From Methyloprofundus sp. (lineage in GTDB: Bacteria > Pseudomonadota > Gammaproteobacteria > Methylococcales > Methylomonadaceae): a DNA stretch of 64,000 bases. Below the pieces are notes generated by a model that saw nothing but the letters and a program-made list of their open reading frames with translations, searched no databases and was not told the origin of the DNA. This document shows, piece after piece, positions 34,025-37,358 of the stretch. The translations under genes were made by a program, and so were the position numbers. The stretch covers positions 1 to 64,000 of the forward strand of contig DUBW01000059.1 in NCBI GenBank assembly GCA_012960135.1, in the 5' to 3' direction. Position 1 is the first letter of the stretch. Each line of letters opens with the position of its first letter.

Positions 34025-35638
34025 TTACAACAGCATCCTCCGTAATACGCTATTTTCTGGCACATCTATTAGCCTGTCGCCACCCTGATGACAATTGTCG
34101 GCAATAACCTCAGCTTTCTGGCGTAAGCTATCTTGTGCCTGGGCATAGACTTTAATCTCTTCTAGTACATCAAATTCCATAGTTTGTAGAGCGCTTATAA
34201 AACCCTGCTTCAAACCTTTTAAAGCTGCTTTTTCTATCGAAGGCTGCAATTTTTTCTGCAGGAAATAGGGAAATAGCCAGGCGATAGCAATAAGCATGAT
34301 GCTGTTTATCGCAAAATTTGCACCCACATAATGTGGCACTTCTTCTAGACTACTTTCATAAAATTCAATAAACACCTGGTAGCCAACCCAGCTCATCGCT
34401 GCGATAGGCAATATGATTTCGGCAAATTGTGCTGTTTTTATGATTAAGCGCTGCAAAAGATTGCCAGGGTTAATCAGCGCTTTGCGCACCGCTAACAAGG
34501 TTTTTTCTTCGACTAATTTCTCAGCATTAACACGTATAGGGTGCAACAATTGTTTCATTGGCATGACCGGTAATGCCAGTTGATCTGCTTGTAAAATCAA
34601 GGCATCCAGCGCATCATCAAAGCGTGTTTGCGCCCATTTATCCCACAGACGTTGATGTAAAAAAGGCTCGGTTTGTTTATCTACTAGATCGCCACTATGT
34701 AGCGCGTAATATTCAGCCAGTTGCTGTTGCGGCAAAATGGTTGCTTCGACTAATAACTTCTGTAGCTCACGCCCTTGCTGTTGCCAGAAACCGATTAATT
34801 CCTGACTAAGGTTGGAAGGTCCCAAAAGCTCGATTGAAGCTTGTAATACTTTAACTAATTCCTCTTTGCGTACCTGTTGCCCTCTAAATTCTAATTGGGT
34901 AATAGTATTTTCAGTTGCCAGATCTTGTAAGCTAGTCTGCAATCTCTCAAATTCATCTGGCTGTGCGCTGGTCTTATCAAGCGCACAACTAGTTTGATAA
35001 ACCAGAGGGTTATTAAACCCTGCTTTGCTCAATTGCTCGATAAAGTCCTGGTACTGTTCTGCCTGCCCCCGGTCGGATTGATTTAACACAAAAATCCAGG
35101 CATGCCGGCCACCTTCAGCTTGTAGAATTTGCCACGCTTTACTATCACGATAGCGCTCCGGACTGACCACATAGATTAATACATCAATATGCGGTAGCCA
35201 TTCTAAAACCAGTTGCTGATTGCCTGGCTCAGCACTATCAAAATCAGGCATATCAATCCAGATAATATGCTTATTCTTCGCTTCGCTATGCTCGGCTATC
35301 TTGATCTTATCTAAAGGTAAAAGACTCGGTAAATGCGCAATTTTCACACTAGTATGATGAAATAATGTCACCTCTCGGGAAGTGGGTCTGACCACTCCTG
35401 CCTGCGCTATTTGCTTATCTGCCAGACGGTTTAACAAGGTACTCTTACCTACCCCCGTGCCTCCTAGAAATGCAACGATTAACGGCCTGGATGTGGCATC
35501 ACTAAATAAACTATCAGGCGTATGCTCGTCATATTCCAGTAGCTTAGTCAATGCGTGCTCTGAAGCCCAGGCACTAGCCATAAGTTCCTGAGCCCAGCCT
35601 TTAGTCTCTGCGACTAAATCAGAGTATTCGTAATCCAT
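34025..35638 (-). CDS. Membrane-associated P-loop GTPase (second of a tandem pair)
   Basis: 537 residues from the ATG at 35638, chosen because GGAAG lies upstream; an in-frame ATG at 35674 is deeper inside the neighbouring gene. G1 is GGTGVGKST (59-67), G3 is DMPDFDS, and G4 is NQSDRG (NQxD in place of NKxD). After the G domain there is a long helical region, then two hydrophobic segments (IILPIAAMSWVGYQVFI and INSIMLIAIAWLFPYF), ending in more helix. This layout (G domain, helical stalk, membrane hairpin) resembles bacterial dynamin-like proteins, but I cannot assign a named family. It overlaps the upstream GTPase gene by 20 bases. Confidence 0.7.
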   Translation of the reverse strand: MDYEYSDLVAETKGWAQELMASAWASEHALTKLLEYDEHTPDSLFSDATSRPLIVAFLGGTGVGKSTLLNRLADKQIAQAGVVRPTSREVTLFHHTSVKIAHLPSLLPLDKIKIAEHSEAKNKHIIWIDMPDFDSAEPGNQQLVLEWLPHIDVLIYVVSPERYRDSKAWQILQAEGGRHAWIFVLNQSDRGQAEQYQDFIEQLSKAGFNNPLVYQTSCALDKTSAQPDEFERLQTSLQDLATENTITQLEFRGQQVRKEELVKVLQASIELLGPSNLSQELIGFWQQQGRELQKLLVEATILPQQQLAEYYALHSGDLVDKQTEPFLHQRLWDKWAQTRFDDALDALILQADQLALPVMPMKQLLHPIRVNAEKLVEEKTLLAVRKALINPGNLLQRLIIKTAQFAEIILPIAAMSWVGYQVFIEFYESSLEEVPHYVGANFAINSIMLIAIAWLFPYFLQKKLQPSIEKAALKGLKQGFISALQTMEFDVLEEIKVYAQAQDSLRQKAEVIADNCHQGGDRLIDVPENSVLRRMLL

Positions 35639-37358
35639 GCCTTTTTTCTTCCAATTGGGCCTCTGCTTCAGCAAGCTGACGCGTAGAGATATTAAAATAA
35701 GTATTATGCATCATTTTTTCTGGTAAGCCGGTTAATGCCTGTTGTAAAACCAGCGTAAATAACTGCTCTTTTACGGCATTCAATTGCTGCTGTTTTAATT
35801 CAGTCTCTGCGCGTTGCAGATAACTGCCTACCGCACTTTCTGCTAAATAAGACGTGACCGATAGCATGGCCGGTGCAATCAGTAAATCATGTAAACCTAT
35901 ACCACCTGCCTGCACTGCCAGTGCCAACATCGCAGCATCGGCTGTTACGCGCGTGGCACGTAAGCCATTTAGCAGTGCTGGGTGTTCTTCCAGTTTATGA
36001 TACAGGCCCTGCGCAGTATTTTCTATTTGCTGCTTAAAGTCCTGATGATACATTTCTGTGCTTTGTTCAAAGTGCTTTAGGATCAGTATTTTTTCTTGCC
36101 TAAGCTGGCTATTAATGGCTTTCCACCATTTATCATTGCCCTGACTCTGGTCAATCTGGTCTAACACCTTATCCCCTAACTGCAGAAACACATGCTCGGC
36201 AATCTGCTGCAATAATGCTGTTTCCAATGTTTTTGGATAAGTCTGCTGATATTTTTTCTTGTCTACGGCAAACACCTTGCGTAACGGCCAGGCTAAAATT
36301 TTTCGACTCTGCGCAATTATATTTGCAAGACCCGGAACTTCCAGCAAAGTCAGAAGTTTTGCTAAAGCATTCTGGAAGGTATCGTAATGATGTGGGTGAT
36401 CCAGGTAATCCCGTTGATATTCAACAGCGGCTTCTTTAATCGCCTGGTTAATCAGGATCTGCCAGGTGGTTTGAGCTTCCTGTTCCGACCTTACTGGCGC
36501 TAACCACGTTTGCCAGTATTGTTTGATAAAATTTGTTGCCGCAGCCTCATGTTTGTTACGTTTCACCTTATGAATACTGCGCTGCACTAAATTGATTAAT
36601 TCAGCCTGCCGATCCTGTGGTACTTCCCTTTTGCTAAATAACACTGGGATGATATCCGGCATTTTGTCCTGGCGAATCTTCTGCCAGCGCTCTTTAAAGG
36701 AGTCAACTAACAGAGTCTGGGAGTCCGCCATCAACTTATTGATTACTACCAGGATAGGTTGATTCAGAGGCTCTATCAATGCCAGTGCATCCCATACCAA
36801 CTGATCCGCATATTTTTCTTTACTCACGACTAATACTAAAACATCGGCAAGCGCTAATGATTTGAATACACCCTCCCGGTAGTTTTGTGCATCGATCGTA
36901 TCAAAATCAGGCGTATCCCAAAGCACACAATCGGGTAGACTATTGGAACTAATACGGTTTAGCGAGTAACACGCATAATCCTGTACATCCAGAGAAAATT
37001 GCTGCACTTCCCGAAAGCCTGAAAAATGCTGGGCGACATAAGCCAAATCATCAGCCTGTAAACCCACTGAAAAACCTTGCGGATAAACAGTATAACCCGC
37101 CAAAGGGCTGACACCGGCAGCATCCTGATTAAGCAATAAATTAACCACGGTACTCTTACCTGATTGCGTTGGACCAATCACTGCTATATTTATTGGCACA
37201 TTTCCTTGTACAATTATTTGCGCTTTATGGAGGAAAGATTCAACTAAGGTTAATTGTTCAATACAGGCCTGAAAGGCTATCCATTGCGAGTTTTCTTCAG
37301 CTAATCCGGATTGAATTATCTGGTAGCGCTGTCTTAAATTTGTAATAAATTCCAGCAT
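35619..37358 (-). CDS. Large P-loop GTPase (first of a tandem pair)
   Basis: 579 residues. G1 is GPTQSGKST (62-70), G3 is DTPDFDT, the same PDFD core as in its neighbour, and G4 is VINKLM. A long helical region follows, with a hydrophobic stretch near residues 460-500 (MLALAVQAGGIGLHDLLIAP) that may touch membranes. The end is a charged helix (ARQLAEAEAQLEEKR). The shared G3 sequence and coupled reading frames suggest the two proteins arose by duplication and act together, as bacterial dynamin-like pairs do. Function is not known. Confidence 0.7.
   Translation of the reverse strand: MLEFITNLRQRYQIIQSGLAEENSQWIAFQACIEQLTLVESFLHKAQIIVQGNVPINIAVIGPTQSGKSTVVNLLLNQDAAGVSPLAGYTVYPQGFSVGLQADDLAYVAQHFSGFREVQQFSLDVQDYACYSLNRISSNSLPDCVLWDTPDFDTIDAQNYREGVFKSLALADVLVLVVSKEKYADQLVWDALALIEPLNQPILVVINKLMADSQTLLVDSFKERWQKIRQDKMPDIIPVLFSKREVPQDRQAELINLVQRSIHKVKRNKHEAAATNFIKQYWQTWLAPVRSEQEAQTTWQILINQAIKEAAVEYQRDYLDHPHHYDTFQNALAKLLTLLEVPGLANIIAQSRKILAWPLRKVFAVDKKKYQQTYPKTLETALLQQIAEHVFLQLGDKVLDQIDQSQGNDKWWKAINSQLRQEKILILKHFEQSTEMYHQDFKQQIENTAQGLYHKLEEHPALLNGLRATRVTADAAMLALAVQAGGIGLHDLLIAPAMLSVTSYLAESAVGSYLQRAETELKQQQLNAVKEQLFTLVLQQALTGLPEKMMHNTYFNISTRQLAEAEAQLEEKRHGLRIL

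Follow-up and report, generated by a model that had tools for sequence, protein, structure and literature searches.

What do two large, adjacent GTPase genes on one strand of a Methyloprofundus contig encode, and what might their products do? The genes, here called A and B, lie in a window of 64,000 nucleotides (GenBank assembly GCA_012960135.1, contig DUBW01000059.1, positions 1 to 64,000), and an earlier note made from the sequence of this window had compared them to two-gene bacterial dynamin-like systems. Structure comparison and the near-obligate pairing of the two genes support this resemblance, and we consider it probable, largely on the basis of predicted models, that A and B, one subunit each, together form a heteromeric machine of the bacterial dynamin-like kind, which tethers or remodels the inner membrane. 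By their sequences, the two apparently represent a new family, so far undescribed, among the paired bacterial dynamin-like proteins (DLPs). The earlier note had recognised no named family, and indeed Pfam and NCBIfam assign nothing beyond the G domain. Judged by titles and the beginnings of abstracts, the literature on dynamin together with Methylococcales or methanotrophs does not describe such a pair, and the words "dynamin" and "GTPase" do not occur in the main text of a CRISPR interference screen of M. capsulatus (PMC13108547).

The main evidence came from the predicted fold. AlphaFold2 models, obtained with alignments of 74 sequences for A and 54 for B, showed a mean predicted local distance difference test value (pLDDT) of 86.1 and a predicted template modelling score (pTM) of 0.79 for A, and of 89.1 and 0.80 for B. 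In both models, N-terminal helices are followed by the G domain and then by long helices, and the long helical stalks anticipated from the sequence are present in both. When the models were compared with the PDB using Foldseek, the matches leading the list for A were the Cj-DLP1/Cj-DLP2 pair, BDLP, Mgm1, Fzo1 and MFN1 (E values of the top five from 4e-8 to 1e-6), with IniA at rank 13; for B, IniA came first, followed by Cj-DLP1/Cj-DLP2, BDLP and EHD4 (top five from 2e-9 to 2e-8). In VIA-align, the highest Z values corresponded to the mitofusin/Fzo1 group: B aligned with MFN1 (5yew_B) with a Z of 19.1 over 292 residues (root-mean-square deviation, rmsd, 4.0; aligned ends 1-527), and A with Fzo1 (9kfd_B) with a Z of 18.6 over 319 residues (rmsd 6.2; aligned ends 1-574), while small unrelated GTPases in the same lists scored 14.1-15.7, on the G domain. 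That N-terminal as well as C-terminal helices join the match is what would be expected for a neck of the BDLP/mitofusin type. In the models, a neck and a trunk are formed by helices from both sides of the G domain, a prediction that is firmer for B than for A.

Cj-DLP1 and Cj-DLP2 of Campylobacter jejuni (PDB 5owv and 5oxf; PMC6104087) are, like A and B, encoded by adjacent large-GTPase genes, and consist of a G domain, a neck and a trunk; they are among the leading structure matches for both proteins, with 12-16% identity by Foldseek. For the Campylobacter pair, that study describes assembly into tetramers, activation of the GTPase and tethering of liposomes, and it states that most bacterial dynamin-like genes are paired; by analogy, A and B may work in a similar manner. 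The same study calls the assembly domain of Cj-DLP1 Campylobacter-specific, whereas the present pair is distinguished by a conserved hydrophobic hairpin in B and a degenerate G4 motif in A. The mitofusins and Fzo1 (MFN1, 5yew; Fzo1, 9kfd) have a membrane segment at the tip of the trunk, which is also the prediction for B, but they are eukaryotic and mitochondrial, and share 10-16% identity with A and B by Foldseek. BDLP1 of Nostoc (2j68) and IniA of mycobacteria (6j72) have the bacterial DLP fold and stand high in the Foldseek lists, at 11-14% identity.

The G domain was the only region recognised by domain models. Dynamin_N and MMR_HSR1 scored above the Pfam cut-off in A and B, with about equal scores in B and a better score for MMR_HSR1 in A; among the family members, Dynamin_N was detected at E <= 0.001 in 51 of the 74 A sequences and in all 54 of B. 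No match covering the helical half of either protein was seen in the Pfam and NCBIfam searches (for B, among the best 25 of 33 NCBIfam matches). The families other than dynamin-like ones that the earlier note had singled out for comparison gave no assignment either: YcjX (DUF463) and YcjF (DUF697) had no Pfam match in the window proteins at E <= 0.1 and were absent from the families listed at E <= 0.001 for the members of A (74) and of B (54), the Leo models matched only stretches of the G domain, and models of housekeeping GTPases scored far below their cut-offs. The profiles of A and B align with each other over the G domain (hhalign 99%, 189 columns), and from their sequences both appear to descend from a common G-domain ancestor.

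The alignments revealed that the nucleotide-binding motifs (Table 1) are well conserved within each family. In A, the family motifs are GPTQxGKS (G1), WD(T/S)PDFD (G3) and NK (G4); the residues G-P-T-Q-x-G-K-S, T90, D148, D151-F-D and N207-K208 are invariant among the 74 sequences. The PDFD motif, which had been attributed to both proteins, is present in 73 of the 74 A sequences, but among the 54 B sequences its third residue varies: 26 have Ile, 22 Phe, 5 Met and 1 Val. Similarly, the divergent G4 motifs previously read as INKL and NQSD correspond to a real G4 in both proteins, but the Ser of NQSD is a local variant of the window, found in 1 of the 54 sequences. The B family mostly shows NQWD or NHWD, with N186 and D189 invariant, Q (32) or H (22) in the second place and W (51) in the third, while in A the Asn-Lys pair is present in 74/74 sequences and the fourth-place Asp in just 17. 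A motif that follows G3 is common to both (SKEKYAD in A, SPERYRD in B). Since A lacks the G4 Asp in most sequences while D189 of B is invariant, the two G domains, though conserved, appear not to be equivalent.

The hydrophobic segments of B (residues about 398-426 and 442-460) are located at the expected trunk tip, and both exceeded a hydropathy of 1.2 in 48 of the 54 sequences. A helix of about 50 residues follows this hairpin in the model; hence, the claim that one protein ends in two hydrophobic segments was right as to the two segments, but these are not terminal. Hydropathy of the single sequences was discarded as proof of a membrane segment, given that the maxima were within the range of the shuffles (reached by 482 of 2000 for B and by 1373 of 2000 for A), and the family-mean analysis was used instead. 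In this analysis, the maximum of B (1.90) was reached by 27 of 2000 column shuffles. The predicted tip of A (residues 460-507) contains many conserved residues; its second segment is hydrophobic in 74/74 sequences and both segments in 4/74. Because the family-mean hairpin signal is beyond chance in B and within chance in A, B is probably anchored in the membrane and A peripheral, as judged from sequences and models.

The description of A and B as two coupled genes was borne out: they are adjacent on the minus strand and overlap by 20 bp. Of 49 loci with measurements for both genes, that of the window among them, 35 showed this overlap; an identical one was present in 41 of 77 loci from named records, and the two sets have some genomes in common. 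The open reading frame (ORF) list places the start of B at a TTG codon at 35674, a mechanical choice; the recurrence of the overlap in 35/49 loci favours the ATG at 35638. The overlap likely results in translational coupling.

The best 80 of 346 confirmed loci from named records were then considered. B was on the same contig as A in 77 of these, and in 71 it started no more than 21 bp from the end of A, overlaps counted; in the three loci without B (L151, L161, L189), A is at or near a contig end. In genome G041 the two genes are 0.8 Mb apart on one contig, and in G049 A is in the middle of a contig that lacks B, the latter being on a different contig. A and B are near-obligate partners, both retained even where they are separated. 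The methanotroph set formed one split in the trees of A and B, with supports of 0.94 and 0.96, a result that is partly circular because we assigned the methanotroph and other labels from the titles of the records and, where a title gave just "proteobacterium" or "Gammaproteobacteria", from similarity and the 20-bp overlap; the locus titled Methylothermaceae (L189) was grouped with the other, non-methanotroph loci. Likewise, five Granulosicoccaceae loci (L174, L186, L195, L200, L208) keep both genes but contain an opposite-strand gene between A and B, which corresponds to CobT in L195, the one of the five that was checked.

According to the mechanism that we propose, B would be seated in the inner membrane through its hairpin, as mitofusins are in theirs, and A, bound to B after coupled translation, would touch the membrane only through its weaker tip, like BDLP and Cj-DLP2. 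Binding of GTP would then promote pairing of the G domains of A and B subunits, and its hydrolysis would bend neck and trunk, whereby two regions of membrane could be tethered, reshaped or fused. The weak G4 of A suggests that the two G domains are not equivalent, and one of them may be more regulatory. By analogy, the job of such a machine would most likely be to maintain or repair the inner membrane, both in Methylococcales and in some of the other Gammaproteobacteria; the membrane-remodelling or stress role put forward earlier would likewise follow from analogy.

Several observations weigh against this reading. The query-normalised template modelling scores of the Foldseek matches listed were low (0.17-0.35 for A and 0.22-0.41 for B), which means that the whole-chain fold is backed more by the order of the elements than by superposition. 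Most VIA-align matches of A covered just the G domain, only residues 43-282 being spanned by at least one fifth of them, and this makes A less certain than B. At the tip of A, residues 471-500 were poorly modelled (pLDDT 51-64), and the maximum of the family-mean hydropathy was reached by 315 of 2000 column shuffles. No bacterial DLP, BDLP1 and IniA included, and no mitofusin appeared among the best 60 profile matches to PDB sequences for A or B, and for this reason the link to dynamins beyond Dynamin_N rests on structure. Finally, the correlation between the pairwise distances of A and B (Spearman 0.93, 122 loci), in itself a point in favour of the pair, was obtained with no control gene, includes some genomes twice (e.g., L080/L207 and L095/L177) and mostly reflects shared descent.

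Table 1. Features of the A/B locus, in positions of the window.
Feature	Position	Strand	Basis
Gene A, predicted dynamin-like GTPase, 579 aa	35619..37358	-	ORF; Pfam MMR_HSR1 and Dynamin_N on the G domain; model; fold matches
A G1/P-loop GPTQSGKS, residues 62-69	37152..37175	-	74 sequences, all invariant but position 66
A G3 WDTPDFDT, residues 147-154	36897..36920	-	Alignment of 74 A sequences
A degenerate G4 NKLM, residues 207-210	36729..36740	-	Asp in 17/74 sequences only
Predicted tip of the A trunk (residues 460-507), moderately hydrophobic and modelled with low confidence	35838..35981	-	Model; hydropathy
Overlap of A end and B start, 20 bp	35619..35638	-	Recurs among relatives' loci
Gene B, 537 aa (ATG at 35638), predicted dynamin-like GTPase carrying a hydrophobic hairpin	34025..35638	-	ORF; Pfam; overlap; model; fold matches
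B G1/P-loop GGTGVGKS, residues 59-66	35441..35464	-	Alignment of 54 B sequences
B G3 WIDMPDFDS, residues 127-135	35234..35260	-	Alignment of 54 B sequences
B G4 NQSD, residues 186-189	35072..35083	-	N and D invariant (n = 54)
Hydrophobic hairpin of B (about residues 398-460) at the predicted trunk tip	34259..34447	-	Both segments hydrophobic in 48/54; family-mean hydropathy
Head-to-head neighbour, lipoprotein by its sequence (by eye), 139 aa	37648..38067	+	No Pfam match; beside the pair in part of the order

The distribution of the pair was determined in three samples. Among 151 genomes of the order Methylococcales, A was found in 129 and B in 130, and the pair in 42 of 44 genera; one of the B matches (G123, E 4.6e-4) may be the G domain of A itself. 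The listed absentees are 18 genomes of family f7 and 2 of family f8, to which elimination adds G106 (89% complete) for both genes and G115 (78%) for A. Among 369 genomes of the class Gammaproteobacteria (E <= 1e-10), A was present in 27, B in 28 and both in 26 of the 29 with either one; those with a single gene are G525, where A reaches the contig end (L132), G466, where B is at a contig start, and G356, which is 58% complete. In a 398-genome sample of the phylum (E <= 1e-8), the window's own genome was the sole match, a result that bounds how common the pair is, as rare families may escape such a sample. The best 80 named loci include Methylomonas, Methylobacter, Methylovulum, Sedimenticola and tubeworm endosymbionts, as well as metagenome-assembled genomes labelled Thiotrichales, Chromatiales and Granulosicoccaceae. 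The pair is near-universal in the sample of the order and scattered in other Gammaproteobacteria. A distant, shorter version, with an A about 27% identical, was observed in L143 (genome G222) and may mark a wider family.

Few bacterial dynamin-like pairs have a known job. The present pair provides a family whose two subunits differ in predicted membrane anchoring and in the G4 motif. It also represents a concrete two-gene target in laboratory methanotrophs; methanotrophs are included in the order sampled, and the biogenesis of their internal membranes is described as unknown in PMC9445010.

A different function that we considered, and judged unlikely, is that of a membrane-surveillance or anti-phage DLP pair, comparable to DynA or to the Leo proteins. 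DynA of Bacillus is a DLP with such a membrane-surveillance and anti-phage role. The PADLOC models of the LeoA/LeoB/LeoC system of E. coli matched A weakly (LeoA, E 2.1e-8; LeoBC, 1.4e-7); their matches to B were weaker still (5.3e-6 and 0.0036), and LeoA was detected in 61 of the 74 A members. However, the best stretches stay inside the G domain: at E <= 0.001, each model (559 and 601 positions) matched a single stretch of A, residues 142-209 and 57-209, respectively, and the best stretches in B were residues 48-206 and 53-82. No match of LeoA or LeoBC over most of the model length was found in either protein. The near-universal presence in the order would also be more in keeping with a stable core gene than with a mobile defence gene, and inspection by eye of the part of the neighbour maps that was listed revealed no defence gene; the neighbours were not searched against PADLOC. 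A mobile or phage origin was rejected on the grounds that A had no match in the plasmid and phage collections, where B was not searched, and that PHROGs yielded just one weak match, to the G domain of B.

We also doubt that the pair has a role in shaping or maintaining the intracytoplasmic membranes (ICM), the stacks in which gammaproteobacterial methanotrophs keep their particulate methane monooxygenase (pMMO), for example at the junction between the stack and the inner membrane. This ICM-specific role was our first hypothesis, suggested by the presence of the pair throughout the order, where genes of the ammonia monooxygenase (AMO)/pMMO family were detected in 122 of the 151 genomes; the window's genome also has a pmoA-family gene, and the lack of a stated mechanism for ICM biogenesis (PMC9445010) speaks for the idea. 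It was weakened by the following counts and kept as a rival. Outside the order, an AMO/pMMO-family gene was found in 0 of the 21 A-bearing genomes searched (21 of the 24 in the sample), and 14 control genomes also gave no match with the same model that detected the 122 in the order. Bacteria with a photosynthetic reaction centre often form ICM, but A was present in 1 of the 6 genomes with Photo_RC, a small number, versus 26 of the 363 without it. Conversely, AMO-family genes, with scores weaker than most others, were detected in 12 of the 18 pair-less genomes of f7 and in both of f8. Presence throughout the order, moreover, may simply reflect descent. Because of these three results (0/21, 1/6, and AMO genes without the pair in f7 and f8), we do not regard the pair as a general factor of ICM or of AMO/pMMO; a role confined to the ICM of methanotrophs is attractive, but the distribution lends it no specific support. 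An improbable variant is that in methanotrophs the pair is a machine dedicated to the methane-oxidising ICM, which it would build, join or seal, and is derived from a more general inner-membrane machine that other Gammaproteobacteria have kept.

It is highly improbable that A and B belong to the Era/Der class, as ordinary GTPases of ribosome assembly or tRNA that carry extra helices: although Der and Era are the best NCBIfam matches, and the PDB profile matches are led by Der/Era in the case of A and by YlqF (RbgA)/Der in that of B, the NCBIfam scores are far below the curated cut-offs (35.3 bits versus 306.7 for Der, 28 versus 237 for Era) with the best stretches within the G domain, a KH domain is not among the Pfam matches, and both the dynamin-like predicted fold and the hydrophobic hairpin of B argue against it. 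The best 60 PDB profile matches (of 125 for A and 91 for B) were mostly P-loop stretches of other GTPases or ATPases. Coiled coils made up a few of them, and some interferon-inducible GTPases appeared low in the lists, as did a single guanylate-binding protein.

Regarding the genes that surround this putative dynamin-like pair, a tryptophan/tyrosine-type tRNA synthetase gene converging on it is located beyond B in the window, and beyond A there is the divergent lipoprotein-like gene followed by purL, both recognised by eye. The lipoprotein-like gene was detected by tblastn in 24 of 40 loci of the order and 38 of 80 named loci, and by clustering in 39 of 43 methanotroph-labelled loci. In the 24 order loci it lies upstream of A on the other strand, at a distance of 3 kb in L095. 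Neither L098, which belongs to the window's family, nor the loci fetched from families f4 and f6 gave a match to this gene. A promoter scan detected 7 promoter-like sites versus 9.7 in shuffled sequences. Nine terminator-like sites were found versus 3.7 in shuffles, all inside A, B or the lipoprotein gene, and the scan was not used.

Clustering of the neighbours in 81 loci, many of them with short flanks, gave 38 clusters with at least 4 loci. Those spanning methanotroph-labelled and other loci were A, B and five others, and each of these five had no more than 2 loci in the smaller of the two groups. A conserved partner gene as a general clue to function was rejected, since the neighbours are lineage-specific (lipoprotein, fae, cbb3-oxidase-type, cobT). 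In nine methanotroph-labelled loci, a Fae gene is located about 7 kb from the pair, and other neighbours in this set, for which one representative each was checked, were ATP-grasp (11 loci), amino-acid-kinase (15), hydantoinase-like (11) and HisA-like (9) genes. In L183, L184, L194 and L205, genes of these five kinds lie within a few kb of the pair, and they may form a tetrahydromethanopterin cluster. In 8 of the 38 other loci (L157, L158, L160, L161, L164, L169, L170, L171), a heavy-metal ATPase gene is located upstream of the pair; three of these loci are titled Sedimenticola. From its neighbours this ATPase corresponds to CcoI, and one representative was checked. FixG-like (6) and FixH-like (7, by eye) clusters accompany the ATPase gene in several of these loci, as in cbb3-oxidase clusters.

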